In this document: positions 8,606 to 32,510 of the stretch, piece after piece
Numbering within the stretch: position 1 is the stretch's first letter
Layout of the letters: each line of letters opens with the position of its first letter
Assembly (NCBI RefSeq): GCF_005768555.2
Contig: NZ_VCHX02000083.1
Span: 1 to 64,000 of the forward strand
Source: Streptomyces sporangiiformans
GTDB lineage: Bacteria; Actinomycetota; Actinomycetes; Streptomycetales; Streptomycetaceae
DNA length: 64,000 nucleotides
Direction of reading: 5' to 3'
The notes under the pieces: model-generated
The model's database searches: none
Seen by the model: the letters and a program-made list of their open reading frames with translations, nothing else
Told to the model about the DNA's origin: nothing
Made by a program: the position numbers and the translations under genes

Positions 8606-9490
8606 TCACGTGCGTGCGCCCACGGCGGCGGTCTCATAGCTGAAGAAGCCTCGTCCGGACTTTCTGCCCAGCAGCCCCGACTCGACCATGCGGCGCAACA
8701 GCGGCGGCGGGGCGTACAGCGGCTCCCGGTACTCCTCGTACAGCGCCTCTCCGATCGCCGCCACCGTGTCCAGACCGATGAGGTCGGCCAGGCGCAACGG
8801 CCCCATGGGGTGAGCGCAGCCGGCCGTCATCCCGGTGTCGATGTCCTCGGCCGTCGCCGTGCCGGAGCTGACCATCCGCACCGCCGCCAGCAGGTAGGGC
8901 ACCAGCAGGGAGTTCACCACGAAGCCCGCACGGTCCTGGGCCATGATCGTCTTCTTGCGCAGAACGTCGCCCGCGAAGGCACGCACACGAAGTTCCGTGG
9001 CCTTCGAGGTGTGCAGCGAGGATATGACCTCGACCAAAGGCATGGCGGGGACCGGGTTGAAGAAGTGCAGGCCGACCACCGCCTCCGGACGTCCGGTCAC
9101 GGCGGCGAGCCGCGCGATGGGGATCGAGGAGGTGTTGCTGGCCAGCACGGCGGCCGGATCGGTGACCACCTCGTCCAGCTGCCGGAACAGAGCCGTCTTG
9201 GCCTCCTCGTCCTCGACGGCGGCCTCGATGACCAGATCGGCCCCAGCCAGCCGGGAGAGGTCTCCGGTCACGGCGATGCCCGCCAGGGCATGCGCGCGCT
9301 CCTCATGAGTGAGGGCGCCGCGCTTCTCCGCCCTGAGCAGGGAGTCCGCGACACCGGCCAGTCCGGCGCGGGCCCGCTCCTCGGTCATGTCGCACAACAC
9401 GACGGACAGTCCGGCCCGGGCGCAGACCTCGGCGATGCCCCGGCCCATCTGCCCGGCGCCGACGATCCCCACATGCTTGATGGCTGCCAT
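8606..9490 (-). CDS. 3-hydroxyacyl-CoA (3-hydroxybutyryl-CoA) dehydrogenase
   Basis: A 294-residue NAD(P)-dependent enzyme oxidising a 3-hydroxyacyl-CoA or reducing acetoacetyl-CoA. The N-terminal Rossmann motif GIVGAGQMGRGIAEVCARAG starts near residue 7. The active-site segment ASNTSSIPIARLA, then VVGLHFFNPVPAMPLVEV, holds the catalytic histidine, and a C-terminal 3HCDH helical domain follows (DRAGFVVNSLLVPYL, GCAHPMGPLRLADLIGLD). Length fits the short bacterial type. ATG 9490 with GGAGGGA seven bases upstream is far better supported than the longer open frame. It is divergent from a CoA-transferase, suggesting shared control and an acyl-CoA pathway. Confidence 0.9.
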   Translation of the reverse strand: MAAIKHVGIVGAGQMGRGIAEVCARAGLSVVLCDMTEERARAGLAGVADSLLRAEKRGALTHEERAHALAGIAVTGDLSRLAGADLVIEAAVEDEEAKTALFRQLDEVVTDPAAVLASNTSSIPIARLAAVTGRPEAVVGLHFFNPVPAMPLVEVISSLHTSKATELRVRAFAGDVLRKKTIMAQDRAGFVVNSLLVPYLLAAVRMVSSGTATAEDIDTGMTAGCAHPMGPLRLADLIGLDTVAAIGEALYEEYREPLYAPPPLLRRMVESGLLGRKSGRGFFSYETAAVGART

Positions 9491-9705: not shown

Positions 9706-10941
9706 GTGGGCACCAAGGACGGCACCCCCGGCGGACGTACCGGTGCTGCCGGGGAAGTGGGCGGTCGCGGCGCGCTGGAGGGGTTGCGGATCGCGGACTT
9801 CTCCCGCGTCCTCGCCGGACCGTACGCCACCATGCTCCTCGCCGACCTCGGCGCCGACGTCGTGAAGGTCGAACGCCCCGGGACGGGCGACGAGACCCGC
9901 CAGTGGCGTCCGCCGGCCGACGAGAACGGTACGTCCACCTACTTCCTGAGCGTCAACCGGAACAAGCGCTCCGTCGCCCTGGATCTGGCGAGCGAGACGG
10001 GACGCGCACAGGCCCGGGAGCTCATCTCCGAGTCCGACGTACTCGTGGAGAACTTCCGGCCCGGCACGATGGAGCGGCTCGGGATGGGCTACGACGACCT
10101 GAAGGCCGCTCACCCCCACCTGGTCTACTGCTCCATCAGCGGCTTCGGGGCCGACGGCGGGGCCGCGATCCCCGGCTACGACCTCCTGGTCCAGGCCGTC
10201 GGCGGGCTGATGAGCGTGACGGGACAGCCCGACGGCGAGCCGGTGAAGGCAGGAGTGGCCCTCGTCGACGTGATCACCGGTCTGCACGCGTCGATGGGCA
10301 TCATGGCCGCCCTGCGGCACCGGGACGCGACCGGCCAGGGACAGCGCGTCGAGGTCAGCCTGCTGGGCTCGCTGCTGTCGGCCATGGTCAACCAGGCGTC
10401 CGGCTACGCCGTCGCGGGCGTCGTACCCGGACGCCTGGGCAACGCCCACCCCAGCATCGCCCCGTACGAGACCTTTCCCACCGCGGACCGCCCGCTTGCC
10501 CTCGCGGTGGGAAACGACGGGCAGTTCGCGTCGCTGGCCGCCGTCCTCGGCTGCCCGGGTCTCGCGGACGACGACCGGTTCCGCACCAACCCCGACCGGG
10601 TGGCCCACCGCGAGGAGCTGCGGAAGGTGCTGGGCGAACGGCTGCTCACGGCCGGCGCCGACCACTGGTCCGCCGCACTGCTTGCCGCCGGGGTGCCCGC
10701 AGGCCCGGTCAACACGCTTGACGAGGCCTTCGCCTTCGCCGAGCGACTCGGGTTGCCCGGCATCGTCACCATGCCCGCCCCGGCGGGCGGACCGGCGCCC
10801 GCGACGGTGTCCCGGCAGGTCGCCCACCCCATCGCGCTGAGCGCGTCACCCGCGCGGTACCACTCGGCGCCACCCGGCCTGGGCGAGCACACCGCGGAGA
10901 TCTTCGGCCGCCCGGTCCACGGCACCCCCGATTCAGCGTGA
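9706..10941 (+). CDS. CaiB/BaiF-family (class III) CoA-transferase
   Basis: A 411-residue enzyme moving CoA between carboxylic acids. The family N-terminus FSRVLAGPYATMLLADLGADVVKVERPGTGD lies around residues 35-65. The catalytic aspartate is in GYDLLVQAVGGLMSVTG, near residue 163. VALVDVITGLHASMG and the C-terminal GVPAGPVNTLDEAF are also typical. GTG 9706 follows AGGAGG by five bases; the first 20 residues are Gly-rich and possibly disordered. The neighbouring divergent 3-hydroxyacyl-CoA dehydrogenase suggests activation and oxidation of an organic acid as its CoA ester. The substrate cannot be told from sequence. Confidence 0.9.
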   Translation: MGTKDGTPGGRTGAAGEVGGRGALEGLRIADFSRVLAGPYATMLLADLGADVVKVERPGTGDETRQWRPPADENGTSTYFLSVNRNKRSVALDLASETGRAQARELISESDVLVENFRPGTMERLGMGYDDLKAAHPHLVYCSISGFGADGGAAIPGYDLLVQAVGGLMSVTGQPDGEPVKAGVALVDVITGLHASMGIMAALRHRDATGQGQRVEVSLLGSLLSAMVNQASGYAVAGVVPGRLGNAHPSIAPYETFPTADRPLALAVGNDGQFASLAAVLGCPGLADDDRFRTNPDRVAHREELRKVLGERLLTAGADHWSAALLAAGVPAGPVNTLDEAFAFAERLGLPGIVTMPAPAGGPAPATVSRQVAHPIALSASPARYHSAPPGLGEHTAEIFGRPVHGTPDSA

Positions 10942-11077: not shown

Positions 11078-11986
11078 TCACTCGACGACAGCCGTCGCGG
11101 CCGCCGCTTCCCGCAGGCGGCGGATCACACCGCGTACCGCGGGCGAGGTCTCGCCCTTGCGGTAGGCGCCGACCAGCCGGGTGGTCAGCCGTACGTCCGC
11201 CAGCGGACGGTAGGTGACCCCCGGTATCTGTACGCGGCGCAGGGAATCCGGCACCAGGGCCACGGCGAGACCGCCGCCCACCAGAGTGAGAGCGGCGATG
11301 AAGTCCCGTACCGGGGGAGCGCACTGCGGGCTGAAACCGCCCTGGTCCGCCACTTCGAGGATCTGGTCGCGGCAGCCGTACTCCTCGGCGAAGTGCGGGG
11401 CCACGAAACGCTCATGGCACAACTGCGCCGCCGGCACGGCCTCGTGCGCCGCCAGCGGCGCGCCGGCCGGCAGCGCCACGACGACCTCTTCCGTGAGCAG
11501 ACAGTCGGCTGTGATTCCCGGCGGGTACTCCGGCCTCCAGCGCAGAAAGCCGACGTCGATGTCTGAGGAGGCCAGCGCCTCGAGCTGGGCCGGTGTCTCC
11601 AACTCACGTACCTGCACCGTCAGTTGGGTGCCGGGAGCCGCGCAGCGGGTGAGGACGTCGGTGAGTACGCCGGAGAAGGCGGCCGAGGCCACATAGGCGA
11701 TCTCGGCGTGCCCCAGCTCCCCGCGGCCCGCCCGCCGGCCCACGGCCTCGGCACGGGCAACCTGCGCGAGAGTGCGCTGCGCCTCCTCGAGAAACAGCTG
11801 CCCGGCGCCGGTCAGCGCTGGGCGCGTGCGCCGTCCGCGGTCGATCAGTCGTACGCCCAGGTGCGATTCCAGGGCCCTGATCTGTGCGCTGAGCGCGGAC
11901 GGAGCCAGATGCAGACGGTCCGACGCCCTCGCGAAGTGCAGTTCTTCCGCGACGATGACGAACGATTCCAGCCAGCGCAGTTCCAC
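11078..11986 (-). CDS. LysR-family transcriptional regulator
   Basis: A 302-residue regulator. The winged helix-turn-helix lies at residues 1-60 (MELRWLESFVIVAEELHFARASDRLHLAPSALSAQIRALE) and the periplasmic-binding-like effector domain fills the rest. GTG 11986 has GGAGGA five bases upstream. It is the last leftward gene of the enolase/dioxygenase block, about 200 bp after the alcohol dehydrogenase, and it has its own LacI-type operator at 12011-12026. It is probably the effector-responsive regulator of the aromatic-type operon, itself placed under a LacI repressor. LysR regulators with BenM/CatR-like layout commonly sense aromatic intermediates; that link is inferred here. Confidence 0.88.
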   Translation of the reverse strand: MELRWLESFVIVAEELHFARASDRLHLAPSALSAQIRALESHLGVRLIDRGRRTRPALTGAGQLFLEEAQRTLAQVARAEAVGRRAGRGELGHAEIAYVASAAFSGVLTDVLTRCAAPGTQLTVQVRELETPAQLEALASSDIDVGFLRWRPEYPPGITADCLLTEEVVVALPAGAPLAAHEAVPAAQLCHERFVAPHFAEEYGCRDQILEVADQGGFSPQCAPPVRDFIAALTLVGGGLAVALVPDSLRRVQIPGVTYRPLADVRLTTRLVGAYRKGETSPAVRGVIRRLREAAAATAVVE

Positions 11987-12010: not shown

Positions 12011-12026
12011 TTGCTGACGATAGCAC
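12011..12026. promoter_or_regulatory. LacI-type operator in front of lysR (13/16 to consensus)
   Basis: TTGCTGACGATAGCAC matches GTGCTAACGTTAGCAC, found five other times in the window, at 13 of 16 positions. It lies 25-40 bp upstream of the lysR start, where a bound repressor would block transcription. Confidence 0.55.
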
Positions 12027-12184: not shown

Positions 12185-13294
12185 TCAGGGGATGACGACG
12201 TAGTTGCTGAAGCCGCCGTCGTGGTCCGTGACGCGTCCCGAGATCGCTTCGTTGACCTTGGACAGCGGGAAGGGCTTGGTGATCAGGTAGGACAGGTCCA
12301 GGGCACCGGTGGCCACCATGTCGGCGATTTCCTGGCCCTGCGCGGTGGTGAACCAGTTGGAGCCGATCAGCTGGACCTGCTCGTCCATGAGCCACTTGAC
12401 GTCCACGGGCAGCCGGTCGCCCACACCGCCGACGTTGATCACCTTGCCGCCGCGGCGGACGCCCTGCATGGAGTCCAGCATCGTCTCCACCGGCGCCTTG
12501 GCACCCAGGGCGCTGATCACGAAGTCCACCCCCTCGCCGGCGGTGCGGGATTTCGCCCACTCACCCGAGGAGCCCTCGCCCAGCCGCATGACCTCGATCC
12601 GGTCCGGGTCCAGTTCCTTGACGCGCTTGAGGAGCTCCTCGTTGCGGCCGGTTCCGAGGACCTTGGAGACACCCGAGGCCAGCGCGAGCAGGGCGGAGGC
12701 GACACCGAGAGTGCCGGTGATCCCGTCGACCAGCGCGACCTGGCCGGGGCCGGCCGCTGCGTGTTTGAGGGCTCCGTAGGACGTGCCGATGTAGCCGAGC
12801 TTTCCGGCCTGCTCGAACGTCATGTTGTCCGGGATATTGACGATCGCGTGCTGCGGCGCGGTCATGTACTCCGCGAAGCCGCCGTAGGGGTAGAGATCGA
12901 AGATCCGCTGGCCGTCACGGGACGTGCTGAAGTAGCCGTTCAGGGTGAAGTAGCGGCACCGGGCGAGCTCGCCGCCGCGACACACCTGACAGCTGCCGCA
13001 CGACCGCAGAGGGCTCACATACACCCTGTCGCCGGGCTTGGTGTTGAGTACCGCTTCGCCGACCGCCTCGACCACGCCCGCGGGGTCCAGGCCGAAGATC
13101 GCGGGCAGCTTGGGCAGTGGCTGGTGCGGGTACCAGGTGGGCCAGTTGTTGATCACGTTGGCCATGTTCGGCACGATCCCGCACGCCTTGACCCGCACCA
13201 GCACGTCGGTCGGCCGCGGGGTGGGCACGTCGATCGTGTCCACCGACATCGGCTCACCCAGGGTGTGCAGTCGTGCAGCGAGCATTTTCGCCAT
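12185..13294 (-). CDS. Zinc-type alcohol dehydrogenase (MDR superfamily), atypical active site
   Basis: A 369-residue medium-chain dehydrogenase. The structural-zinc lobe is complete (Cys99, 102, 105, 113 in CGSCQVCRGGELARC). Cys38 of the catalytic site is present in KACGIVPN, but the usual GHE zinc motif is replaced by GLD at 68-70, so catalytic zinc may be absent or bound differently. The nucleotide fold contains GITGTLGVASALLALA and VINVGGVGD. ATG 13294 has GAGGAG eight bases upstream. It is the fourth gene of the leftward operon led by the enolase paralogue and probably handles an alcohol or semialdehyde of the ring-cleavage product. Confidence 0.82.
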   Translation of the reverse strand: MAKMLAARLHTLGEPMSVDTIDVPTPRPTDVLVRVKACGIVPNMANVINNWPTWYPHQPLPKLPAIFGLDPAGVVEAVGEAVLNTKPGDRVYVSPLRSCGSCQVCRGGELARCRYFTLNGYFSTSRDGQRIFDLYPYGGFAEYMTAPQHAIVNIPDNMTFEQAGKLGYIGTSYGALKHAAAGPGQVALVDGITGTLGVASALLALASGVSKVLGTGRNEELLKRVKELDPDRIEVMRLGEGSSGEWAKSRTAGEGVDFVISALGAKAPVETMLDSMQGVRRGGKVINVGGVGDRLPVDVKWLMDEQVQLIGSNWFTTAQGQEIADMVATGALDLSYLITKPFPLSKVNEAISGRVTDHDGGFSNYVVIP

Positions 13295-13423: not shown

Positions 13424-13975
13424 CTACGACTTCGGGAAAGGATTCGGGTAATTGTCCTCGAGGTCGATGTCCAGCAGACCCATGATGCGGACGCCGGAGT
13501 TGTACCAGGCGATGGACAACGACAGTTCAACCATCTGCTTGTCCGAGAGGTGTTCGGCGGCGGCACGCCACGTCTCCTCGGAGACGTCGATCTTGAGCGT
13601 GGACTCCTTGGCCAGGCGCATCACCGCCTTCTCCGTCGCGTCGAACAGGTCGGACGACTCGAAGTCGGCCACCGCCGCGAGCTGTTCCTCGGTGAGCCCG
13701 GCCTTGAGGCCGTGCGACTGGTGGTGCGCGACCTCGTACGCGGACCGGGTCGCGTAACCCACGGTCAGGATGGCCAGTTCACGCAAGCGGGGGCTGAGGT
13801 CGGCGGCCCGCAGCGAGTTGGCGTAGCTCAGAAAGGCGTCCAGCTGCGTGGGCGCGTTGGTGAGGGCGAGGAAGATGTTCGCCGTCGGTACCTTGCGCTC
13901 GGTCTCCAGCCGGTCGTACAGGGGCTTCAGTGACTCGTCGGAGTCCTCGCGGCGAAGGTAGGGCACTCGTGCCAT
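13424..13975 (-). CDS. Carboxymuconolactone decarboxylase-family protein
   Basis: A 183-residue protein with one CMD/AhpD-like helical domain: LRELAILTVGYATRSAYEVAHH at about 67-88 carries the conserved Glu and His pair without the CxxC of peroxidase-type AhpD. A second family signature is MVELSLSIAWYNSGVRIMGLL. The longer open frame starts eight codons earlier, but ATG 13975 has AAGGAG six bases upstream. In the operon it follows an extradiol dioxygenase and precedes the alcohol dehydrogenase, so decarboxylation or isomerisation of a ring-cleavage intermediate is plausible. Many family members have no known reaction. Confidence 0.82.
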   Translation of the reverse strand: MARVPYLRREDSDESLKPLYDRLETERKVPTANIFLALTNAPTQLDAFLSYANSLRAADLSPRLRELAILTVGYATRSAYEVAHHQSHGLKAGLTEEQLAAVADFESSDLFDATEKAVMRLAKESTLKIDVSEETWRAAAEHLSDKQMVELSLSIAWYNSGVRIMGLLDIDLEDNYPNPFPKS

Positions 13976-14008: not shown

Positions 14009-15013
14009 TCAGGGAATGGGCTGCTCGAGCAGGAACCGCTCGAGCGACATGGGCTTCGGCTGCTCGGCCGGCGGGATCTGCGGCACGCCGACGAAGGGCG
14101 ACGCCTCGAAGTACCACTTCTCCAGGGCCGGGAGGCCCCAGCGCGCGTTGGTGCTCAGCGATGCCGCGTCCCAGCGCACGGGTTCGACCTCGGTGTCGAT
14201 CGTCTGGTAGTGGCTGTTGAAGACCTCCACCCGGTGGCCGTCGGGGTCGCGGAGGTAGGCGAAGAGCATCCCGCCCGGACCATGACGACCCGGGCCCCGT
14301 TCCACGCCGTCGCCGTAGCCGAGGATGCCCGCCCAGTCGCAGGCGGTGAAGATGTCACGGCTCTCGGAGACGGTGTAGGCGAAGTGGTGCAGGGCGGGCC
14401 CGGTGTTCTCGATGATCGCGAGGTCGAGGCAGGTGCCCTTGCGGTACATGAACGCACCCAGCAGCTTGTCGCCGCGCTCCAGGTACTCCGAGTTGCGGAA
14501 GCCGAGCTCGCTGTAGAACGCGCACAGTTCGTAGGTGTCGGGCGCGAAGATCTGGTAGTGGTCCAGCCGTTGCGCGTGGGCACCTTTGTATTGCTCGAAG
14601 TTGATGTGCAGCCGCGGCCGGGTCTCCATGGTCGCGCACAGTTCGAGTGGCGTGCCGATGGGGTCGCTGACATGCAGGGTGCGGCCCTGGTACGGGAGGT
14701 CGACCCACTCGGCGGGCAGACCCCGCTCACGGAACCACTCGTACGCGATGTCGAGGTCCTCGTCGAAGAAGACGCGGAACCCGATCCTCTTGCTCCTGCC
14801 CGCGCCCTCCTCGTCCAGCTCCAGGACGAGGCTGTGGTGGCAGGCCTCGGCCAGGCCGCGGAGGTAGCAGGTGCGCTCGTCCTCATCGCTGACGACGAGC
14901 CCCAGCGCGTTCACGTAGAAGTTCTTGCTCTCGGCCAGGTCGGCCACGGTGAGACGCACATGGCTGGATCGGGTGATGTTGAAACTCGGGCGCAGATTTA
15001 CGGGAGGCAGCAT
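14009..15013 (-). CDS. Extradiol ring-cleavage dioxygenase, homoprotocatechuate 2,3-dioxygenase-like (VOC fold)
   Basis: A 334-residue type I extradiol dioxygenase that should insert O2 next to the two hydroxyls of a catechol. Two vicinal-oxygen-chelate modules are visible: SSHVRLTVADLAESKNFYVNALGL at 17-39, and HAQRLDHYQIFAPD at 146-159. The metal triad is complete: His152 in RLDHY, His210 in ALHHFAY and Glu263 in HRVEVF, matching His155/His214/Glu267 of the Brevibacterium homoprotocatechuate enzyme. ERGPGRHGPGGM is also shared with that enzyme. ATG 15013 has GGAG six bases upstream. It is second in the operon, 96 bp after the enolase paralogue. The ring substrate is probably a 4-substituted catechol. 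Confidence 0.88.
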   Translation of the reverse strand: MLPPVNLRPSFNITRSSHVRLTVADLAESKNFYVNALGLVVSDEDERTCYLRGLAEACHHSLVLELDEEGAGRSKRIGFRVFFDEDLDIAYEWFRERGLPAEWVDLPYQGRTLHVSDPIGTPLELCATMETRPRLHINFEQYKGAHAQRLDHYQIFAPDTYELCAFYSELGFRNSEYLERGDKLLGAFMYRKGTCLDLAIIENTGPALHHFAYTVSESRDIFTACDWAGILGYGDGVERGPGRHGPGGMLFAYLRDPDGHRVEVFNSHYQTIDTEVEPVRWDAASLSTNARWGLPALEKWYFEASPFVGVPQIPPAEQPKPMSLERFLLEQPIP

Positions 15014-15109: not shown

Positions 15110-16420
15110 TTACGAGGCGTCCGTGGAGGCCTTGGGGCCGGCGAACGTGAATGCCGACCATCCACTGAATTCCGCGGAATTCCCCAGAGCCTCTTCGATG
15201 CGAAGAACCTCGTTCCACTTCGCCATGCGCTCGGAGCGGGTGAACGATCCCACCTTGAGCTGGCCGGCGTCCCAGCCGACGCTCAGGTGGGCGATGGTGA
15301 CGTCCTCGGACTCTCCGGAGCGGGCCGAGACGATCGTTGCGAAACCGGCTTCCTGCCCGGCCCGGAGGGCGGCCAGCGCCTCGGTGACCGTTCCGGCCTG
15401 GTTCGGTTTGATGAGCACGGCGTTGGCCGCTCCGTCGGCCGCCGCCGCCTGAACCCGCTTCGCGTTCGTCACCAGGAAGTCGTCGCCGATCACCTGACAA
15501 CGGTCTCCGTACCGCCGCGTGAACTCGATCATGCCCTCGGGATCGTCCTCGCCGAGGGGGTCCTCGATGGACAGGATCGGATAGGTCTCGATCCAGCGCC
15601 CGAGCATCTCGATCAGCGCACCCGTGTCCAGGGCGCTGTCGTCGAGGGCCAGCCGGTACTTCCCGGCGCTGCCGAACTGCGAGGCCGCGATGTCCAGGGA
15701 GATGCCGACCTGGGCCGAGGGCGCGAAGCCCGCGTTCTCGATGGCCAGGGTCAGTGTCTCCAGCGCCTCCTCGTTGGAGTCGAACGCCGGCCAGAAGCCC
15801 CCTTCGTCGGCCACGCCGCCGGTCTTGCCCGCCTTGCGCATCAGGCTGCCGGCGGCCCGGTAGATCTCCGCGGTCCAGTCCAGGGCCTCGGAGAAGCTGC
15901 CTGCCGCGGGGCAGACGACCATGAAGTCCTGCACGTCGACGCGGCGGTCGGCATGGGCCCCGCCGCCGAAGATCTGGATCTCCGGCAGGGGGATCCGCAC
16001 CGGTCGTCCGCCCGACAGATGAAGCCACAACGGCTTGTCGGCCGATGCCGCGGCGGCGTGCAGTACGGCCATGGAGGTCGCCACGATCGCGTTGCCGCCG
16101 AGACGGCTCCGGTCGCTGGTTCCGTCGAGGTTCACCAGCAGCTGGTCGATGAACTCCTGGTCGGCCGCGTCCTGCTCCTTGAGCGCGGGCGCGATCTCGG
16201 TGTTCACCGAGCTCACCGCGCGATGCACGTCGAGCCCGCCGAAGCGGCTGCCGCCGTCACGCAGGTCGAGCGCCTCGCCCTGACCGGTGGAGGCCCCGGC
16301 CGGTGCGATCGCCCGTCCGACGGCACCGTCCGCGAGGTGCGCCTCGACCTCTACGGTCGGCCGACCGCGTGAGTCCCACACTCTGCGGCCGTAGAGCTTG
16401 GCGATCCGCGCGTCTGTCAT
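15110..16420 (-). CDS. Enolase-family paralogue with altered active site
   Basis: A 436-residue, full-length enolase homologue. Kept residues: His156 (GGAHAD), Glu206 (ADEGG), metal ligands Asp243, Glu286 and Asp313, catalytic bases Lys338 (LIKPNQ) and Lys389 (GQLKVGS), and the phosphate pair Arg367-Ser368. Two residues near the C3-hydroxyl of 2-phosphoglycerate differ: the Glu168 equivalent (yeast numbering) is Asp165, and the His373 equivalent is Ala366 (VSARSGE for VSHRSGE). Abstraction of an alpha proton from a 2-phosphorylated acid should remain possible; the 3-substituent site is opened. It leads the dioxygenase operon under a LacI-type operator, so it is unlikely to be glycolytic. ATG 16420 lies downstream of AAAGG; the longer upstream frame has low-complexity repeats. 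Confidence 0.83.
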   Translation of the reverse strand: MTDARIAKLYGRRVWDSRGRPTVEVEAHLADGAVGRAIAPAGASTGQGEALDLRDGGSRFGGLDVHRAVSSVNTEIAPALKEQDAADQEFIDQLLVNLDGTSDRSRLGGNAIVATSMAVLHAAAASADKPLWLHLSGGRPVRIPLPEIQIFGGGAHADRRVDVQDFMVVCPAAGSFSEALDWTAEIYRAAGSLMRKAGKTGGVADEGGFWPAFDSNEEALETLTLAIENAGFAPSAQVGISLDIAASQFGSAGKYRLALDDSALDTGALIEMLGRWIETYPILSIEDPLGEDDPEGMIEFTRRYGDRCQVIGDDFLVTNAKRVQAAAADGAANAVLIKPNQAGTVTEALAALRAGQEAGFATIVSARSGESEDVTIAHLSVGWDAGQLKVGSFTRSERMAKWNEVLRIEEALGNSAEFSGWSAFTFAGPKASTDAS

Positions 16421-16838: not shown

Positions 16839-16854
16839 GTGCTAACGATAGCGC
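16839..16854. promoter_or_regulatory. LacI-type operator over the enolase-operon start site (14/16)
   Basis: GTGCTAACGATAGCGC lies immediately downstream of the minus-strand -10 hexamer, so it covers the expected transcription start. It matches the window consensus at 14 of 16 positions. Centre-to-centre distance to the partner site at 16955 is 116 bp, about eleven helical turns. Confidence 0.72.
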
Positions 16855-16885: not shown

Positions 16886-16954
16886 GAGGCTGATGAAACC
16901 TCCCTTTGTCGCGATGGCCGGTTCGCTCTCAACCGTTGGCCGGGTCGCTCTCGG

Positions 16955-16970
16955 GTGCTATCGTTCGCAC
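16955..16970. promoter_or_regulatory. Upstream LacI-type operator of the enolase operon (14/16)
   Basis: GTGCTATCGTTCGCAC lies about 70-90 bp upstream of the -35 hexamer and matches the consensus at 14 of 16 positions. Its phasing with the site at 16839 is compatible with a repression loop. Confidence 0.65.
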
Positions 16971-18135: not shown

Positions 18136-18152
18136 GAGCGGAAGGTAGCACA

Positions 18153-18170
18153 GACAACACGGCGCTTGCA
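18153..18170. promoter_or_regulatory. Candidate repressor site at the lacI start
   Basis: GACAAC and GCGCTTGCA, read in reverse, give TGCAAGCGCCGTGTTGTC. This resembles TGCAAGCGTTGTC at 18301-18313 with an extra spacer. It overlaps the presumed lacI promoter, so autoregulation is possible. The spacing difference keeps confidence low. Confidence 0.3.
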
Positions 18171-18272
18171 GTCCCTGATGACATCGCTGTCACGGCAGAC
18201 GTATGGTCGCAAAAAGCCTTATAAGACGCGCTCTTCTCCCTGCGCCGCACTGCATTACCGCGAAGTAACGCA

Positions 18273-18301
18273 TTGACTTCCGGAAAACGCACCCCTACTT
18301 T
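18273..18301 (+). promoter_or_regulatory. Promoter of the alpha-glucoside transport operon
   Basis: TTGACT (18273-18278), a 17-base spacer and TACTTT (18296-18301) fit the housekeeping consensus. It points into the binding-protein gene at 18492. Confidence 0.6.
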
Positions 18302-18314
18302 GCAAGCGTTGTCT
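18299..18314. promoter_or_regulatory. Candidate LacI operator over the transport promoter
   Basis: TTTGCAAGCGTTGTCT overlaps the -10 and start of the promoter at 18273-18301. It is an imperfect inverted element of the LacI size class with a central GCG. The adjacent LacI at 17062 is the presumed binder. Confidence 0.4.
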
Positions 18315-18491
18315 CAGCGGAGTCGAAGCAATCCTGTTCGAGTCGATCCTCAATGCTTTGACCTGTGGTGTTGATCTACAACGCGCAGTGGCAACGCGGT
18401 CTCACCAACAGGCCATCTCAGAGTCATCCCGGCAGCGACTCCCTCACAGGGGACCAGCCGTGACTTCGGTTCCGCACGACCAGGAGAGACA

Positions 18492-19790
<1,299 letters not shown>

Positions 19791-19801
19791 GGAGCGGGGC
19801 C

Positions 19802-21684: not shown

Positions 21685-21739
21685 ACCCGGGCGCCCCGCC
21701 GCCCTCCTGCCCCCAACGTGCAAGGAGTACCGCACCCAC

Positions 21740-23383: not shown

Positions 23384-23419
23384 CGGCTCGCACGAGACGT
23401 AACAGCCCTCCTCGAACCG

Positions 23420-23465
23420 CCAGGGTCTGTCCGGTGTCACTCCCCGCCGGCCGGACAGGCCCTGG
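23420..23465. terminator. Hairpin after the alpha-glucosidase gene
   Basis: A 15-bp stem with one G-U pair (arms 23420-23434 and 23451-23465) encloses a 16-base loop. It separates the GH13 gene from the debranching-type gene and argues against the GTG at 23434 as a start, since that codon lies at the stem-loop junction. Confidence 0.6.
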
Positions 23466-23520
23466 CCCGTCCTCGGCGAGTTCGACGAGCTCCGACATCA
23501 ACCCGAGAGGCACATCTCTT

Positions 23521-25709: not shown

Positions 25710-26729
25710 TCAGGCCTGACGGCCGCCGGGCGGTGCCGTGCTGCCGCGCACGACCAGCGATCCGGGGGAGACGGAGGTGTACGGCCCGTCGTTGCTTGGC
25801 TTCGTGGTGAGCCGGCGCATCAGCCACAGCGCGCACCCCGTGGCCATCTCCTCGATGGGCAGGCCGACCGTGGTGAGTCCGGGGCCCCACCAGGAGAATC
25901 CCGGCTCGTCTCCGAACCCGACCACGGACAGCTCCTCGGGCACCTTCACCCCCTGCTGGGACAGCTCCTCCAGGACGCCCAGGGTGAGCTGGATCGACCC
26001 GAGGACGAGCGCGGTGGGCGCCCGCGGATCCTCCAGGAGTCGGCGCACGGTCTCACGGCCGTGCGCGAGTGAGGCCGGCGGCCCCAGCTCCGCCCGTCCG
26101 GCGTCGTCGGGCAAGCCCCCCTCCTGCAGGGCGCTGCGGAAGCCCCGCAGTCGCTCCGCGCCCGTGGGCAGTTCGACGGGGCCGCCCACGTAGGCGATAC
26201 GGGTGTGTCCCTGCGCCACCAGGTGAGCTGTGGCCCGTCGCAGTGCCTCGTGGTCGTCCACGCCGAACCACTGGGATCCAAGTGAGGGGTGCCGGCGCAG
26301 CAGTTGCAGATGCGGCACCGCGCGCAGGAGCTTGACGGAGTCGCTGTGCGGGCGCGCCGTGGGCACGATGATGATGCCGGCCACGCGGTTCGCGGACAGC
26401 TCTCGCAGATGGCGGAGTTCCACCATCCTGTCGTCGTCGGTCTCCGAGAGCATGAGCTGGTAGCCCTGAGCCTCCATGTTCTTGGACAGCTCGTGCGCGA
26501 TGGCCGAGTAGAAGCTGTTGCGGATGTCCGGGATCACCAGCGCGACCACGTTGCTCGACGCTCCCCGCATCATCCGTGCCGCGCGGTTGGCGACGTACCC
26601 CATCTCGGCAGCGGCCTGGCGGACCCGGAACTTGGTCTCCTCGCTGATCCGGGAGTCGTCGGCGAGTGCCCGGCCGACCGTCGAGACGGAGATCCCGAGG
26701 CGTTCGGCGATGTCCCTGGTGGTGATCAC
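25710..26729 (-). CDS. LacI-family repressor, likely master of the GTGCTAACGTTAGCAC regulon
   Basis: A 339-residue repressor. The DNA-binding head is ITTRDIAERLGISVSTVGRALADDSRISEETKFRVRQAAAEMGY (2-45) with the minor-groove hinge NRAARMMRG. The effector domain follows (VALVIPDIRNSFYSAIAHELSKNM, GIIIVPTARP, HTRIAYVGGPVELPTGAERLRGF, LSVVGFGDEPGFSWW). GTG 26729 is chosen because upstream codons are low-complexity and GAGGGGG lies about nine bases before it. Two copies of the 16-bp operator lie in its upstream region, one of them a perfect palindrome, so it is probably autoregulated and binds the four further copies at 12.0, 16.8, 16.9 and 29.6 kb. The effector is unknown. Confidence 0.88.
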   Translation of the reverse strand: MITTRDIAERLGISVSTVGRALADDSRISEETKFRVRQAAAEMGYVANRAARMMRGASSNVVALVIPDIRNSFYSAIAHELSKNMEAQGYQLMLSETDDDRMVELRHLRELSANRVAGIIIVPTARPHSDSVKLLRAVPHLQLLRRHPSLGSQWFGVDDHEALRRATAHLVAQGHTRIAYVGGPVELPTGAERLRGFRSALQEGGLPDDAGRAELGPPASLAHGRETVRRLLEDPRAPTALVLGSIQLTLGVLEELSQQGVKVPEELSVVGFGDEPGFSWWGPGLTTVGLPIEEMATGCALWLMRRLTTKPSNDGPYTSVSPGSLVVRGSTAPPGGRQA

Positions 26730-26774: not shown

Positions 26775-26790
26775 GTGCCAACGATAGCAT
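26775..26790. promoter_or_regulatory. LacI-type operator upstream of lacI (13/16)
   Basis: GTGCCAACGATAGCAT lies 46-61 bp upstream of the lacI GTG and matches the consensus at 13 of 16 positions. It is 70 bp from the perfect site at 26845. Confidence 0.6.
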
Positions 26791-26844: not shown

Positions 26845-26860
26845 GTGCTAACGTTAGCAC
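26845..26860. promoter_or_regulatory. Perfect 16-bp palindromic LacI operator
   Basis: GTGCTAACGTTAGCAC is an exact inverted repeat with a central CG, the usual LacI-family operator shape. It lies between lacI (26729, leftward) and the FAH hydrolase (26913, rightward) and can control both. It is the reference for the other five sites. Confidence 0.8.
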
Positions 26861-26912: not shown

Positions 26913-27692
26913 GTGCGGATCGTCAGATATTCGATCGGCGGTGTATGTCACTACGGAGAACTCGAAGCCGGTGACGCGAGGATCGCGCGGTTCGAGGGTG
27001 ATCCCTTCACCGGGATACGCCCCACGGGCGATATCGACGAGGTGGGTGAGGTGCGGATTCTGCCGCCGCTGGAGCGGCCCAGGATCTTCGGGTTCGCCTA
27101 CAACTACGCGTCGCACATCGACGAGACCGACCGTGACGTTCCGGAAGTCCCTGTGGTCTTCATGAAGCCGAGCACGGCGATGGCCGGGCCGGGCGATGCC
27201 ATCGTCTATCCGGCCGACGGTGAACTCATCCATTTCGAAGGCGAGTTGGTCGTCGTCATCGGAAAGGAGGCCCGCCATGTGAAGCCCTCCGAAGCCCATG
27301 AATACATCCTCGGCTATACGTGCGGAAATGATGTCAGCGATCGCATCATCCAGCGCAAGGAAAGCAAATTCGGAGCGCTGCTGATCGGAAAAGGGCAGGA
27401 CACGTTCGCGCCCATGGGGCCGGTCATCGCCACGGACCTCGACTCGTCCCGGCTCTCGCTGACCACACGGGTGAACGGAACCGTCAAGCAGTCGGCGAGC
27501 ACCGCCGATCTACTGCTCGCCGTCCCCGGCATCGTCAGCTATCTCAGCCGCCATCTCACGCTTCTGCCGGGCGACGCGATCATGACGGGCACCCCTTCCG
27601 GCGTCGGGCCGATCCGCCCCGGGGACGAGGTCGAGGTCGAGATCGAGGGCATCGGCGTCCTGCGCAACCGCGTCGTGGCCGAGGGGCGCTGA
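26913..27692 (+). CDS. Fumarylacetoacetate hydrolase-family protein
   Basis: A 259-residue FAH-fold enzyme; relatives hydrolyse, decarboxylate or isomerise 2-oxo-ene-dioic acids from ring cleavage. Signatures are FGFAYNYASHIDE (~residues 58-70), VVFMKPSTAMAGPGDAI, the metal ligand Glu in HFEGELVVVIGKEA, YTCGNDVSDRIIQRKE and the C-terminal GDAIMTGTPSGVGPIRPGDEVEVEIEGIG. GTG 26913 has GGAGG five bases upstream. It lies next to a perfect LacI operator, and the same operator controls the extradiol dioxygenase block at 14 kb, so I infer it acts on a product of that dioxygenase, in the manner of HpaG. Confidence 0.87.
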   Translation: MRIVRYSIGGVCHYGELEAGDARIARFEGDPFTGIRPTGDIDEVGEVRILPPLERPRIFGFAYNYASHIDETDRDVPEVPVVFMKPSTAMAGPGDAIVYPADGELIHFEGELVVVIGKEARHVKPSEAHEYILGYTCGNDVSDRIIQRKESKFGALLIGKGQDTFAPMGPVIATDLDSSRLSLTTRVNGTVKQSASTADLLLAVPGIVSYLSRHLTLLPGDAIMTGTPSGVGPIRPGDEVEVEIEGIGVLRNRVVAEGR

Positions 27693-27860: not shown

Positions 27861-29132
27861 CTAGTGGGCTGGGGCGTTGTTGAACTGCGAGGTGCGGACG
27901 AAGGCCAGGGCCACGACGCCCAGCAGCGGCAGGACCGTGACCTGCAGCAGCCCGGCCTGGTCCCAGCCGTAGGAGTCCACCAGGGCGGCGAAGAGCAGGC
28001 CCGAGAACGCTGCCGGCCCGTAGTAACTGGTGACGAACAGACCGGAGGCGCGTCCGATCTGTCCGGGACGGACGGCCCGCTGTATCGCGCTGTTGGTGTT
28101 GGGGTAGATGAAGCCCAGCCCGAAGGCGCCCATGAGGAAGGCGAGCAGGCACTGCACCCCCACTCCGGCGTGTGTCTCGTAGATGCACACGCTGATGGCG
28201 GAGACGGCCAGCAGGCTCAGGATCAGCAGGTTGCGCTGGTTGAAGCGGTCGCCCAGCCAGCCGCCGAACACGGCGGTCATGCCGCCGAAACCGAGGAAGC
28301 TCATGGCCAGTGCGGCCTGACCGGCGGTGTAGTGCAGCGAGGTGATGAGGTACGTCGGGTAGAGGCCGAGGAACCCGTAGATCGCCACACCGCTGATGAC
28401 CGCGTGGACGGCCAGCGCGACCGTGTTGCGGTTGTAGGCGGAAACCGGCATGTACTCGTAGGTCTTGGTCGAGACGACCTCGTCGACGGAGGTCTCGGTC
28501 AGGCCGGCTTTCACCAGGAACAGGGAGACGGCGGCGATCAGCAGCCCGGCTGTGCCGAACAGGTAGAAGGGCGAGTGCCAGGTGCCGTGCATGTTCATGA
28601 GCTGGACACCGATCAGCGGGGCGATGAACACGCCGACGGAGTAGCCCAGGCCGATGACGCCGAAGGCGAGGCCGCGCCGGTGGGCGAAGAAGGCGCCGAC
28701 CGCCGCGAAGATGGCGGCGGACTGCATGCCCTCCCCGAAGCCAGAGATGACCCGGTACGCCGTCATGTCGGCGAGGCCGGTCGCCAGCGGAGTGGCCATC
28801 GTGCCCAGGGAGTAGATCACGATGCTGACCAGCAGCACGGTCTTGCGGCGGAAGCGGTCCAGGAGGTAGCCCGCCGGGAGGCCCGCGATGGCCATGCCGA
28901 GGGTGAAGTTCGTCGCCAGCAGCCCGCCCTGCTCCAGGGAGAACCCGTACTCCTCGCGGATGTTCGGCAGGAGGGGAGGGAAAACCTGACGGTCCATCGC
29001 ATTGACCATGTAGGACAGAATCAGCAACAGGAAACCCACTCCGACCATGGGGCGGGAAAGGGAGGACCGGCTGCTTTCCGCCGTGTCCCGGGTGGGCACG
29101 GCGGGCGTCTCGACTTGCGCTGCGTGATTCAT
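27861..29132 (-). CDS. Major facilitator superfamily transporter
   Basis: A 423-residue, 12-helix transporter. Helix 1 is GFLLLILSYMVNAMDRQVFPPLLP; the MFS loop 2-3 motif is seen in GLPAGYLLDRFRRKT (~residues 82-96), and the second-half copy is FGGWLGDRFNQRN. The MDRQ in helix 1 and overall pattern resemble the anion:cation symporter and organic-acid transporters. ATG 29132 has GGGAG seven bases upstream; the longer frame is not supported. It is divergent from the 2-hydroxyacid dehydrogenase operon, so it probably imports the organic acid this regulon degrades. A candidate leftward promoter lies at 29405-29433. Confidence 0.87.
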   Translation of the reverse strand: MNHAAQVETPAVPTRDTAESSRSSLSRPMVGVGFLLLILSYMVNAMDRQVFPPLLPNIREEYGFSLEQGGLLATNFTLGMAIAGLPAGYLLDRFRRKTVLLVSIVIYSLGTMATPLATGLADMTAYRVISGFGEGMQSAAIFAAVGAFFAHRRGLAFGVIGLGYSVGVFIAPLIGVQLMNMHGTWHSPFYLFGTAGLLIAAVSLFLVKAGLTETSVDEVVSTKTYEYMPVSAYNRNTVALAVHAVISGVAIYGFLGLYPTYLITSLHYTAGQAALAMSFLGFGGMTAVFGGWLGDRFNQRNLLILSLLAVSAISVCIYETHAGVGVQCLLAFLMGAFGLGFIYPNTNSAIQRAVRPGQIGRASGLFVTSYYGPAAFSGLLFAALVDSYGWDQAGLLQVTVLPLLGVVALAFVRTSQFNNAPAH

Positions 29133-29537: not shown

Positions 29538-29568
29538 TTGACGGGTCGAGAATCCCGAGTGCTATCGT
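29538..29568 (+). promoter_or_regulatory. Promoter of the 2-hydroxyacid dehydrogenase operon
   Basis: TTGACG (29538-29543), a 19-base spacer and TATCGT (29563-29568). The -10 lies inside the LacI-type operator. The spacer is one or two bases long for a strong promoter. Confidence 0.45.
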
Positions 29569-29574
29569 TAGCAC
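29559..29574. promoter_or_regulatory. LacI-type operator of the 2-hydroxyacid dehydrogenase operon (15/16)
   Basis: GTGCTATCGTTAGCAC matches the perfect site at 26845 in 15 of 16 bases. It overlaps the -10 of the rightward promoter, a classical repressor position. Confidence 0.75.
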
Positions 29575-29860: not shown

Positions 29861-30868
29861 ATGAGACCACCGAGCACGGGCACCGTGCTGCTCACCGACT
29901 ACGCCTGGCCCGACGACACCGTCGAGCGATCGGTCATCGAGGAAGCGGGCCTCACCCTCGTGACCGGCCCCGCCGAGCCCGCCTCCGCCGAGGTCATCGA
30001 GGGCCTGGTCGCCGAGCACCGCCCCTCGGGGATCCTCACCTGCTGGGCGCCCGTCTCCGCCGCCGCGGTCGGGGCGTCGCCGGACCTGCGGATCGTGGCC
30101 AGGCTCGGTGTCGGACTCGACAACATCGCCGTGGACACCGCCACGGAGCGCGGCGTCTGGGTCACCAATGTGCCGGACTACTGCGTCGAGGAGGTCTCGG
30201 ACCACGCCGTGGGCATGGTGCTGGCCTGGACGCGCGGGCTGGCCGTGTGCGACCGGGAGGTCCGCGCGGGCCGCTGGGACCCCGCGGCGGCCCGACTGCG
30301 CCGACTGTCGACGCTGACCTGCGGCGTCGTCGGATACGGACGGATCGGGCGCGCCACGGTCCGCAAACTGGGCGCCTTCTGCTGCCGGATCCTGGCACAC
30401 GACCCGCACCCGCCCCAGGACGTTCCGGGGGTGGAGATGGTGGGACTGGAGGAGCTGCTGCGCCGCAGCGACGTGGTGATCCTCCATGTGCCGCTGACGC
30501 GGGACACGCACCATGTCATCGGCGCGGAGCAGTTGGCACTGATGCCGCCGGGCGGTCTGCTGGTCAATGTCAGCAGGGGAGGCCTGGTGGACACCGACGC
30601 GGTCGTCAAGGCGCTGGACAGCGGGCACCTGGGCGGAGCCGCCTTCGACGTACTGGAAACCGAACCGCACGTCCCCGCCGAACTGCTCGCCCAGCCGGGC
30701 GCCGTCCTCACCCCGCATGTGGCGTTCTCCTCCGACGCGTCGGTCACGGAGTTGCGTCGCCGCGCCGCCGAGGAGGTCGTCCGGGTGCTGAGGGGCGAGA
30801 CGCCGGCCCACGCTCGCAACAGCCCCCGCGGCGCCGATGCCGCTGGTGGGCCGGGGGACCGGCGATGA
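29861..30868 (+). CDS. D-isomer-specific 2-hydroxyacid dehydrogenase
   Basis: A 335-residue NAD(P)-dependent oxidoreductase interconverting a 2-oxo acid and a D-2-hydroxy acid. The dinucleotide motif is CGVVGYGRIGRATVRKLG, near 155-172. The catalytic Arg lies in VNVSRGGLVDTDAV, the Glu in DVLETEPHVPAE and the His in LTPHVAFSSDAS. VARLGVGLDNIAVDTATERGVWVTNVPDYC is the conserved N-terminal pattern of the glycerate/phosphoglycerate dehydrogenase group. ATG 29861 is preceded by GAGG. Its gene overlaps an APH-fold kinase by four bases, so the hydroxy acid may be phosphorylated next. Its promoter carries the LacI operator at 29559. Confidence 0.9.
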   Translation: MRPPSTGTVLLTDYAWPDDTVERSVIEEAGLTLVTGPAEPASAEVIEGLVAEHRPSGILTCWAPVSAAAVGASPDLRIVARLGVGLDNIAVDTATERGVWVTNVPDYCVEEVSDHAVGMVLAWTRGLAVCDREVRAGRWDPAAARLRRLSTLTCGVVGYGRIGRATVRKLGAFCCRILAHDPHPPQDVPGVEMVGLEELLRRSDVVILHVPLTRDTHHVIGAEQLALMPPGGLLVNVSRGGLVDTDAVVKALDSGHLGGAAFDVLETEPHVPAELLAQPGAVLTPHVAFSSDASVTELRRRAAEEVVRVLRGETPAHARNSPRGADAAGGPGDRR

Positions 30869-31938
30869 CCTCGAACTCCGTGCCCGTACCGGCTGCTGTG
30901 CCGACACCGGTCTCCGGGCCTGTCATGGTCTCCGCGTCCGCACCTGAGCCCGCGCTGACCGATTTCCTGCTGGCCAACAAGCTTGCCGCGCCGGACGAAG
31001 CCGCGCGCTGGACGCCGCTGGCCGGTGGCGTCTCCTCCGATCTGTGGCGGGTGGACCTGCCAGGGCGCTCCCTGTGCGTGAAGCGGGCGCTGGCCAAACT
31101 GCGGGTCGCCGCCGACTGGCAGGCGCCGGTGTCGCGCAACGCCTACGAGTGGGCGTGGATGCGGTTCGCGGCCGGACACCGACCGGACAGCGTCCCGGAA
31201 CTGCTGGCCCACGACGCCGCGGCCGGCCTCTTCGCGATGGCGTACCTGCCCCCCGAGCGGTACCCGGTGTGGAAGGCGCAACTGCTCGACGGAAAGGTGG
31301 AGGTGGAGACCGCGGCGGCCGTCGGAGAGGTGCTCGGCGGTCTGCACGCGGCCAGTGCCGGGGACACCGCACTCGCGGCGGAATTCGCCACCGACGACAA
31401 CTTCAACGCGCTGCGCATCGAGCCGTACCTGCTGGCCACCGCGGCCGCGCACCCCGGGCTGCGCGACGTTCTCCAAGACCTCGCCGACCGCACGGCCGCG
31501 ACGCACCTGGCCCTGGTGCACGGCGACGTCAGCCCCAAGAACATTCTTGTCGGGCCCGCTCAGCCGGTGCTGCTGGACGCCGAATGCGCGTGGTACGGAG
31601 ACCCGGCCTTCGACCTGGCCTTCTGCGTCAATCATCTGCTCCTCCAGAGCCTGGTCGTACGCGGGCGCCGCGCCGAACTCCTGGGGTGCGCCCGGGTGCT
31701 GGCCGAGGCGTACTTCCGGCGCGCCGACTGGGAGCCGAGGGCGGCGCTTCAGGCGCGCGCGGCGTCGCTGCTGCCGGCGCTGCTGCTCGCACGCGTGGAC
31801 GGCAAGTCGCCGGTGGAGTACCTCACCGACGACCGGCACAAGTTGTTCGTACGCACCGTGGCGTCGGCCCTGCTCCGTGCGTTCGCCCCCACCGTGGAGG
31901 ACGTACTGGACGCCTGGCGGACCGCTCTCAACAGCTGA
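30865..31938 (+). CDS. APH-fold kinase (phosphotransferase family)
   Basis: A 357-residue small-molecule kinase of the aminoglycoside phosphotransferase/choline kinase fold. After an Ala/Pro-rich tail, the nucleotide lobe holds TPLAGGVSSDLWRVDLPGRSLCVKRAL with the ATP-binding lysine near residue 73. The catalytic loop is LVHGDVSPKNILV near 225-237, and the metal-binding Asp lies in LLDAECAWYGDPAFDLAF. ATG 30865 overlaps the dehydrogenase stop by four bases, implying coupled synthesis. Being an operon partner of a 2-hydroxyacid dehydrogenase and co-regulated with an enolase paralogue, it may phosphorylate the 2-hydroxyl of a glycerate-like acid. That role is inference; the fold is secure. Confidence 0.82.
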   Translation: MTSNSVPVPAAVPTPVSGPVMVSASAPEPALTDFLLANKLAAPDEAARWTPLAGGVSSDLWRVDLPGRSLCVKRALAKLRVAADWQAPVSRNAYEWAWMRFAAGHRPDSVPELLAHDAAAGLFAMAYLPPERYPVWKAQLLDGKVEVETAAAVGEVLGGLHAASAGDTALAAEFATDDNFNALRIEPYLLATAAAHPGLRDVLQDLADRTAATHLALVHGDVSPKNILVGPAQPVLLDAECAWYGDPAFDLAFCVNHLLLQSLVVRGRRAELLGCARVLAEAYFRRADWEPRAALQARAASLLPALLLARVDGKSPVEYLTDDRHKLFVRTVASALLRAFAPTVEDVLDAWRTALNS

Positions 31939-31973
31939 GGATCCCGTCCGAACCCGACCGAGAGGAGCCGCAC

Positions 31974-32510
31974 ATGCGCAGAGTCGTCACCGGTCATGAC
32001 GAGAACGGAAGATCGGTCGTCGTCAGCGACGGCCCCGTTCCCCGCACCAGAGAGTTCACCAGTCTGCCCGGCTGGGTGTCCGCGGTGCCGTGGGCCACCG
32101 AACCCGGCGAACCGGTCAGCCGGACCGGGGAGGACCCCACACCGAAGATCACCAGTCTCCTCCCGGGCCCCGGCGGCACACGCTTCATCGTCCTCACCAT
32201 GCCGCCGGACACCGCCATGGCCGACCCGGCGTTCGACCCCGTGGCCTTCGACAGTGAGCAGCGAGCCGATTCGCCCGGTATCGCGGAGCTCATCGGGCCC
32301 GACGGCATGCACACCACGCCGACCGTCGACTACGGCATCGTGCTCCAGGGGGAGGTCGTCCTCGAACTCGACGACGGCCGGTGCACGCCGCTCTCGGCGG
32401 GAGACATCGTGATCCAGAACGGCACCCGGCACGCCTGGCGCAATCGCAGCGACCGTCCGGTCATCGCGGCCTTCGTACTGATCGGAGCCGAGGTCGGGAA
32501 CGACCGCTGA
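31974..32510 (+). CDS. Cupin-domain protein
   Basis: A 178-residue protein with a C-terminal cupin barrel. Motif 1 is seen in HTTPTVDYGIVLQGEVVLELDDG (~110-132), and motif 2 in LSAGDIVIQNGTRHAWRNRSDRPVIAAFV (~138-166). The first half precedes the barrel and contains ITSLLPGPGGTRFIVLTMPPD. Cupins of this size serve as small metalloenzymes or ligand-binding proteins. ATG 31974 has GAGGAG about seven bases upstream, 35 bp after the kinase, so it is third in the LacI-controlled operon. Its role may be isomerase, decarboxylase or sensor; sequence does not decide. Confidence 0.82.
   Translation: MRRVVTGHDENGRSVVVSDGPVPRTREFTSLPGWVSAVPWATEPGEPVSRTGEDPTPKITSLLPGPGGTRFIVLTMPPDTAMADPAFDPVAFDSEQRADSPGIAELIGPDGMHTTPTVDYGIVLQGEVVLELDDGRCTPLSAGDIVIQNGTRHAWRNRSDRPVIAAFVLIGAEVGNDR

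Follow-up and report, generated by a model that had tools for sequence, protein, structure and literature searches.

Enolase (phosphopyruvate hydratase) is commonly treated as an enzyme of one reaction, in which, in the numbering of the yeast protein, Lys345 takes the C2 proton while Glu211, Glu168 and His373 lie around the 3-hydroxyl that leaves; the variants K345A, E168Q and E211Q were reportedly described by Poyner et al. in 1996. The CPEP synthase of bialaphos biosynthesis is an enolase paralogue with a new job. In one segment of the serine cycle, enolase is preceded by hydroxypyruvate reductase and glycerate 2-kinase and followed by phosphoenolpyruvate (PEP) carboxylase. Glycerate kinases fall, according to PMC2063504, into classes I, II (MOFRL) and III. 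Here we describe a locus in a 64,000-nucleotide stretch of Streptomyces sporangiiformans DNA (assembly GCF_005768555.2, contig NZ_VCHX02000083.1, positions 1 to 64,000; hereafter the window) that encodes a D-2-hydroxyacid dehydrogenase (DH), a kinase of the APH superfamily (KIN) and a paralogue of enolase (ENO) altered around the position of the leaving group. We propose, with a confidence somewhat above even, that the three form a dedicated route that would convert a three-carbon 2-oxo acid to a D-2-hydroxy acid, its 2-phosphate and finally PEP.

Two enolases are encoded in the assembly, a housekeeping copy on contig C123 and ENO. The latter exceeds the TIGR01060 cut-off (478.6 bits versus 300) and has the whole fold, base, acid, metal ligands and phosphate contacts of enolase, with K338, E206, D243, E286 and D313 at the positions of the catalytic Lys345 and Glu211 (yeast numbering) and the three metal ligands. 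However, at the Glu168 and His373 positions expected of a phosphopyruvate hydratase it has D165 and A366, and this change is class-wide. The alignment comprised 77 rows (75 distinct sequences, the window copy and L069/L099 each being present twice), 55 of them in subfamily I and 22 in subfamily II. The yeast Glu168 position is Asp in 55/55 and 22/22 of these, respectively, the Gly before the DEGG motif is replaced by Ala in 55/55 and 22/22, and the His373 position is Ala in 53/54 and 22/22, L013 being cut short there and the deviating L003 looking frameshifted. Neither Glu168 nor His373 occurs in any of the 72 enolase-bearing kinase loci; Asp168 and Ala373 are found together in 68, and the remaining four have a truncated sequence or depart from the pattern at a single site. 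A further 35 rows, from which rows outside 380–520 residues were dropped and some of which repeat loci of the first set, comprised 21 Asp/Ala/Ala sequences (including Haladaptatus and Halomarina), 13 housekeeping-type sequences and one oddity (L111). All 13 of the housekeeping type, from genomes reached via kinase loci, have Glu/Gly/His. The lysine base, Glu211, the three metal ligands, the phosphate-site Arg/Ser and Lys396 are kept in 34 of the 35, the exception being L111. In a tree built without six duplicate rows and seven Streptomyces copies, the housekeeping enolases form one clade (100/100) with the kinase-linked groups I and II outside it and L111 on a very long branch; this tree, being unrooted, is compatible with one as well as with two origins of Asp168/Ala373.

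Since the lysine base is kept while the Glu168 and His373 positions are changed throughout the class, the residues on the leaving-group side suggest the same chemistry at C2 and something different at C3. ENO would be, like CPEP synthase, an enolase paralogue with a new job; in contrast to bialaphos biosynthesis, no phosphonate genes were recognised among the annotated genes of the window. Most of the annotated plasmid records examined label the kinase-linked paralogues 'phosphopyruvate hydratase'. The L111 sequence is from plasmid pE20191216 of Enterobacter chuandaensis (10193–24100), where an enolase-like protein, recorded as hypothetical, is faced by a distant homologue of the kinase (41%). 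This protein has Asp168, while Lys replaces Glu211 and Gly replaces His373. The cluster, in which there are also an aminotransferase, a nucleotidyltransferase, iron-dependent redox enzymes and an M14 peptidase, seems biosynthetic.

KIN matches PF01636 (APH) at 61 bits (cut-off 23.2) and contains HGD.SPKN, corresponding to the superfamily pattern HGD..PKN, together with LDAE. Its predicted model (mean predicted local distance difference test score, pLDDT, 88) is structurally nearest to 5-methylthioribose (MTR) kinase, with Z 35–37, a root-mean-square deviation of 2.2–2.5 over 308–329 residues and 17–20% identity, followed by PsiK (Z 30.7) and the lanthionine-synthetase kinase LxmK (Z 24–25). 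Aminoglycoside 3'-phosphotransferases are found at Z ∼17 (APH(3')-Ia, Z 16.8). The first-pass annotation of this DNA, made from the sequence without database searches, had named specificity for an aminoglycoside as an outcome that would count against its pathway; the predicted fold disfavours this outcome, and a role of KIN in aminoglycoside resistance was rejected from that fold and the gene context. With MTR kinase KIN shares the DxE sequence at the metal-binding loop in addition to the predicted fold, but the identity is low and the gene context is different, and because KIN scores 53.4 bits against TIGR01767 (NCBIfam MTR kinase), far below the cut-off of 275, it was rejected as a true MTR kinase and is, as modelled, MTR-kinase-like in build yet not an MTR kinase. 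Pfam searches (E up to 0.001) returned only APH, TCAD9 and EcKL on KIN and no glycerate kinase family of class I, II or III. KIN would share with those classes its proposed role in the C2 phosphorylation of a three-carbon hydroxy acid but none of their families, and by sequence it would represent a fourth, unrelated glycerate-kinase-type class and a fourth solution to phosphorylating small hydroxy acids at C2.

DH, KIN and a small cupin are open frames on the plus strand between 29861 and 32510. DH exceeds the Pfam cut-offs for PF02826 (183.9 bits) and PF00389 (66.7 bits), contains the catalytic motifs SRGG, LETEP and TPHV and is close to phosphoglycerate, glyoxylate and hydroxypyruvate reductases; judged by these features it is a member of the D-specific 2-hydroxyacid dehydrogenase family. 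An ATGA is common to the stop of DH and the start of KIN, confirming the four-base overlap noted in the first-pass annotation. That annotation had also placed the same LacI-type operator before DH–KIN and the enolase operon, and this was borne out by a perfect match at 29559 and one-mismatch sites at 16839 and 16955. The window contains six sites (12011, 16839, 16955, 26775, 26845 and 29559) that match the 16-base palindrome GTGCTAWCGWTAGCAC with no more than three mismatches, where 0.25 are expected by chance and none of 100 shuffles had more than two. In the whole assembly (10.36 Mb) seven sites with up to two mismatches were found, six of them inside the window, and the reversed-pattern control gave none. 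Site 29559 is 426 bp from the start of the MFS gene and 286 bp from that of DH and may serve either or both.

The seventh site is on contig C199, just before an FMN_red gene (L152:9961-10521) whose product is 31–44% identical over 117–179 residues to genes within Rhizobium, Variovorax, Ramlibacter and Duganella clusters. An FMN_red gene is present in cluster L032, and in other Streptomyces clusters such a gene adjoins the enolase paralogue (L008). The C199 protein has no match to the L008 FMN_red at E 1e-10, and therefore it is the FMN_red role that recurs rather than the same gene. Across the 80 kinase loci described below (1.42 Mb) there are 59 operator sites with at most one mismatch, eight of them with no called gene start close by, compared with none for the reversed control. 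The genera bearing them are Burkholderia, Trinickia, Rhizobium, Variovorax, Ramlibacter, Duganella, Arthrobacter and Parafrankia. Operators with up to two mismatches are present in 29/29 kinase loci that have a gene for a VOC dioxygenase versus 6/51 that do not. The operator hence marks an old regulon of dioxygenase-type clusters, probably that of the LacI-family regulator LacI2, which presumably binds it.

Scanning species genomes with KIN gave at least 554 related loci, of which the 80 best were analysed (L007, with a stop in frame, is not in the second protein alignment). The enolase paralogue is present in 72 of them and a DH-like gene in 50, which answers the suggestion of the first-pass annotation that co-occurrence across genomes be sought. 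Other partners are the VOC dioxygenase (29), a zinc dehydrogenase (30), CMD (24), FAH (24), the cupin (33) and LacI2 (27). Five of the eight kinase loci without an enolase are in genomes that have a close paralogue (64–86% identity) elsewhere. Among 295 Streptomyces genomes, a close kinase (at least 76% identity) occurs in 16, a close ENO paralogue in 15 and both in 15, so that every paralogue genome has KIN (Fisher p 3e-24, not corrected for relatedness). Four of 20 Streptomyces kinase genomes are excluded from the 16 (G014, 60%; G070, 37%; G270, 38%; G243, split); in the first three a more distant enolase paralogue adjoins the kinase. One Streptomyces-set contig of 11.5 Mb (G253:C1) has two copies of kinase and enolase paralogue with equal match scores, near 124617 and 11415221, probably in a terminal inverted repeat. 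In Rhodococcus opacus PD630, four-base overlaps join DH to ENO and ENO to KIN. The shared operator, the co-occurrence in Streptomyces and across phyla and these overlaps support DH, KIN and the variant enolase as what would be one conserved functional unit, its members being found jointly in bacteria of soil and roots.

The module extends beyond aromatic-type clusters such as that of the window, since kinase–enolase pairs also occur without VOC genes. Such a pair is found in Methylobacterium nodulans, and in Paracoccus and Roseibium it is accompanied by FAH, SDRs and sugar ABC transporters, again with no VOC genes. On three haloarchaeal plasmids (L112, L114 and L116) the pair is located among mandelate-racemase-type dehydratases; there it also adjoins a ketol-acid-reductoisomerase-like gene and TCP-1 chaperonins. 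The first-pass annotation had included the dioxygenase, FAH hydrolase and MFS transporter in the pathway; the linkage of DH, KIN and ENO holds, but that gene set was too narrow a definition, as those three genes are not always present.

An indication of the product comes from Rhizobium. PEP carboxylase genes were found in 15 of 120 Rhizobium genomes and KIN in 17, and in 15/15 genomes PEP carboxylase and KIN are on one contig with a spacing of 1,049–1,109 bp, which leaves room for DH (Fisher p 3e-17, relatedness not corrected). All 15 of the carboxylases exceed the PF00311 cut-off. In each of five Rhizobium genomes that carry the cluster there is a single PEP carboxylase gene, directly before DH in 5/5 loci, with the motifs AHPTE and FHGRGG in 4/5 (L030 is a partial frame) and more motifs in L034 and L036. 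A one-mismatch operator precedes PEP carboxylase by 14 bp in L034 and L036, L035 and L037 have two-mismatch sites at the corresponding place, and no operator was found before the gene in L030. Because the sampled Rhizobium have PEP carboxylase only beside KIN (15/15), this linkage is the strongest evidence for PEP as the most likely pathway product. All four gene types of the serine-cycle segment are thus present in the Rhizobium cluster and the proposed reactions follow its order, but the window-type kinase has another fold, the enolase is of an altered class, and ring-cleavage and FAH genes adjoin.

We infer the reactions and substrates of the favoured route as follows. DH would reduce a three-carbon 2-oxo acid, either hydroxypyruvate or a pyruvate substituted at C3 (X-CH2-CO-COO-), to the D-2-hydroxy acid, KIN would place a phosphate on the 2-hydroxyl, and the conserved lysine of ENO would take the C2 proton as the C3 group is expelled, giving PEP. 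In the window, where the route would be under LacI2 control, the 2-oxo acid would be derived from an aromatic or aromatic-like acid, whose ring would be cleaved by the VOC dioxygenase before the FAH-type enzyme acts, and the CoA-transferase and hydroxyacyl-CoA dehydrogenase would perhaps handle another fragment. The order of reduction, C2 phosphorylation and elimination to an enol phosphate given in the first-pass annotation is retained as the most economical reading, with the PEP carboxylase linkage (15/15) pointing to PEP as the enol phosphate. The odds between plain hydroxypyruvate and a substituted pyruvate as the 2-oxo acid are nearly equal: the class-wide Asp168/Ala373 favours the latter and the likeness to the serine cycle the former. 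A sulfolactate-like leaving group was considered, and L-glycerate is disfavoured as a substrate by the D-specific family of DH and the retained catalytic lysine. More tentatively, and with a confidence that falls somewhat below even, the kinase-linked enolases might constitute a new class of the enolase family that works with an MTR-kinase-fold 2-hydroxyacid kinase and either expels a group other than water or uses a C3-substituted acid, yielding PEP or a PEP analogue.

Several observations weigh against the proposed route. Two of the 17 Rhizobium genomes with KIN (G328 and G418) have no PEP carboxylase, and the PEP carboxylase link was examined and seen in Rhizobium only. No close enolase paralogue was found in the genomes of L012, L046 and L061, the last two being metagenome bins. 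The DH-like gene of VOC-free loci is 58–73% identical to the window DH where the enolase is of subfamily II, versus 35–42% where it is of subfamily I, and may in the latter encode a different dehydrogenase. The operator is nearly absent where the VOC gene is missing, and there is therefore no single repressor for the whole family; the co-occurrence counts, moreover, ignore shared ancestry. For plain D-glycerate the housekeeping enolase would suffice, such that the class-wide alteration needs another reason. This last point bears on the most serious competing explanation, that the locus is serine-cycle-like with plain substrates, DH being a hydroxypyruvate reductase, KIN a glycerate 2-kinase of MTR-kinase fold (the fourth class) and ENO an ordinary 2-phosphoglycerate enolase whose changes merely tune it. 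The relatives of DH are what this explanation predicts, DH, KIN, ENO and PEP carboxylase of Rhizobium amount to the hydroxypyruvate-to-oxaloacetate half of the serine cycle, and the L061 kinase, accompanied by FAH and a mandelate-racemase-type dehydratase, fits glycerate freed from a sugar acid. However, an ordinary enolase would poorly tolerate the class-wide loss of Glu168 and His373, which contact the leaving hydroxyl, and a normal enolase is also present in the paralogue genomes where examined. We regard this explanation as a substantial minority possibility.

It is rather unlikely, in our estimation, that KIN and ENO act on larger 2,3-dihydroxy acids, such as sugar acids or ring-cleavage products, dehydrating R-CHOH-CHOH-COO- via a 2-phospho intermediate to a substituted PEP. 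Asp168 and Ala373 would open space at C3, the Paracoccus and Roseibium loci, with their sugar transporters, have no separate sugar-acid dehydratase named in gene tables that are incomplete, and the haloarchaeal clusters are rich in sugar-acid-type enzymes. Yet those same haloarchaeal clusters do contain separate dehydratases, no enzyme dedicated to a substituted enol phosphate was recognised, and the Rhizobium linkage favours PEP itself. Membership of the APH superfamily, with MTR kinase as the nearest fold, might also suggest that KIN acts on an unrelated target, an antibiotic or a methylthioribose-like sugar, and is merely co-regulated with a second, redundant enolase; the recurrent association of the kinase with the variant enolase, which extends from Streptomyces to haloarchaea, and the NCBIfam score make this very improbable.

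If the reading as a new enolase class is correct, the breakdown of plant-type compounds in roots and soil and of sugar acids in haloarchaea would enter central metabolism through a C2-phosphorylated intermediate. We know of no described pathway that uses such an intermediate, and no paper on the DH–KIN–ENO module was found among the titles and abstract openings of the open PMC literature. The subclass is widespread, its leaving-group side is altered, and it is accompanied by a kinase of its own and, where the clusters are of the dioxygenase type, by a conserved operator. This suggests that many of the 'phosphopyruvate hydratase' labels on such paralogues are wrong and that a catabolic entry point to PEP is absent from metabolic maps. 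The operator, which extends from Streptomyces to Rhizobium and Burkholderia, also provides a list of partner genes with which the substrate could be sought by derepression and growth screens.

Coordinates and assignments of the focal genes, neighbouring genes and operator sites in the window.
Feature	Position	Strand	Remarks
DH, D-2-hydroxyacid dehydrogenase	29861..30868	+	335 aa; 2-Hacid_dh, Rossmann GYGRIG, Arg/Glu/His catalytic motifs
KIN, kinase, APH superfamily	30865..31938	+	357 aa; MTR-kinase-like predicted fold; HGD.SPKN and LDAE motifs
Small cupin	31974..32510	+	178 aa; Cupin_2 (Pfam); homologues in 33/80 kinase loci
ENO, enolase paralogue	15110..16420	-	D165, A204, A366 at housekeeping Glu, Gly, His; K338, E206, D243, E286, D313, R367, K389 kept
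VOC extradiol-type dioxygenase, HPCD homologue	14009..15013	-	retains the metal triad; Leu at the position of HPCD His200
FAH-family protein	26913..27692	+	best PDB match HpaG/HpcE-type isomerase/decarboxylase of 4-hydroxyphenylacetate degradation
MFS transporter	27861..29132	-	best NCBIfam match aromatic acid/H+ symport family, below cut-off
CMD/AhpD-like protein	13424..13975	-	CMD gene in 24/80 kinase loci
Zinc-type MDR dehydrogenase	12185..13294	-	zinc dehydrogenase gene in 30/80 kinase loci
CaiB-type CoA-transferase	9706..10941	+	best NCBIfam match succinate-glutarate CoA-transferase, below cut-off; possible downstream arm
3-hydroxyacyl-CoA dehydrogenase	8606..9490	-	possible downstream arm
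LacI2, LacI-family regulator	25710..26729	-	probable regulon regulator; homologues in 27/80 kinase loci
LysR regulator	11078..11986	-	possible regulon member
Operator GTGCTATCGTTAGCAC, LacI-type	29559..29574		perfect match; between divergent MFS and DH genes
Operator GTGCTAACGTTAGCAC	26845..26860		52 bp before FAH
Operator	26775..26790		2 mismatches; 45 bp before LacI2
Operator	16955..16970		1 mismatch; 534 bp before enolase-paralogue operon start
Operator	16839..16854		1 mismatch; 418 bp before enolase-paralogue operon start
Weaker operator-like site	12011..12026		2 mismatches; 24 bp before LysR gene

The neighbouring genes invite comparison with the homoprotocatechuate (hpa) meta-cleavage pathway, as the window has both a dioxygenase like homoprotocatechuate 2,3-dioxygenase (HPCD) and an HpaG-like FAH protein. 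The VOC protein is a clear HPCD homologue (E 2e-60), although below the TIGR02295 cut-off (288.7 bits versus 321.4), and the 2-His-1-carboxylate triad of type I extradiol enzymes is kept among its homologues, both His in 38/38 and the Glu in 37/37 that could be scored. The second-shell catalytic His200 of HPCD is, however, Leu and Trp192 is Phe in 38/38 aligned VOC members of the regulon, and for this reason its substrate or mechanism probably differs from that of HPCD. Further differences from the hpa pathway are the added DH–KIN–ENO arm and the lack of an aldehyde dehydrogenase among the operator-marked genes, one being encoded 6 kb away (38704–40143). Near the window cluster this gene is joined by a class-III aminotransferase gene (34545–35813). 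In a Sphingobium cluster (L113, 22470–25207) gabT and gabD are found within 9 kb; these neighbours may reflect chance or a semialdehyde-using arm.

Genes for acyl-CoA dehydrogenase, CoA-transferase and hydroxyacyl-CoA dehydrogenase recur near the Rhizobium, Burkholderia and Sphingobium clusters. The acyl-CoA dehydrogenase, annotated as the glutaryl-CoA type in Sphingobium, has no match in the window. For the feeding compound, an aromatic acid bearing a side chain may reasonably be guessed. A substrate of the trihydroxyphenylpropionate type (C9 to a C5 diacid, hydroxypyruvate and CO2) agrees by carbon count only and was kept out of the main claim, the partner acyl-CoA dehydrogenase being the one without a window match.

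The Streptomyces locus L012 (genome G294), with LysR, ADH, kinase, cupin and partial DH genes, the ADH gene adjoining that of the kinase, has no VOC or enolase-paralogue match and looks like a cluster deletion. In the window, the enolase operon is separated from LacI2 by a block at 17062–25671 comprising LacI1, a sugar ABC transporter and a glycosidase (named by eye), where other Streptomyces have an FMN_red gene. This block was set aside as a part of the pathway, as it has its own LacI1 and 0/6 of the window operators are between 16970 and 26775. Short direct repeats (gtgcgcaag and gtgctcggg, identified by eye) are present at 16540–16610, in the long leader that separates the enolase paralogue from the operators.

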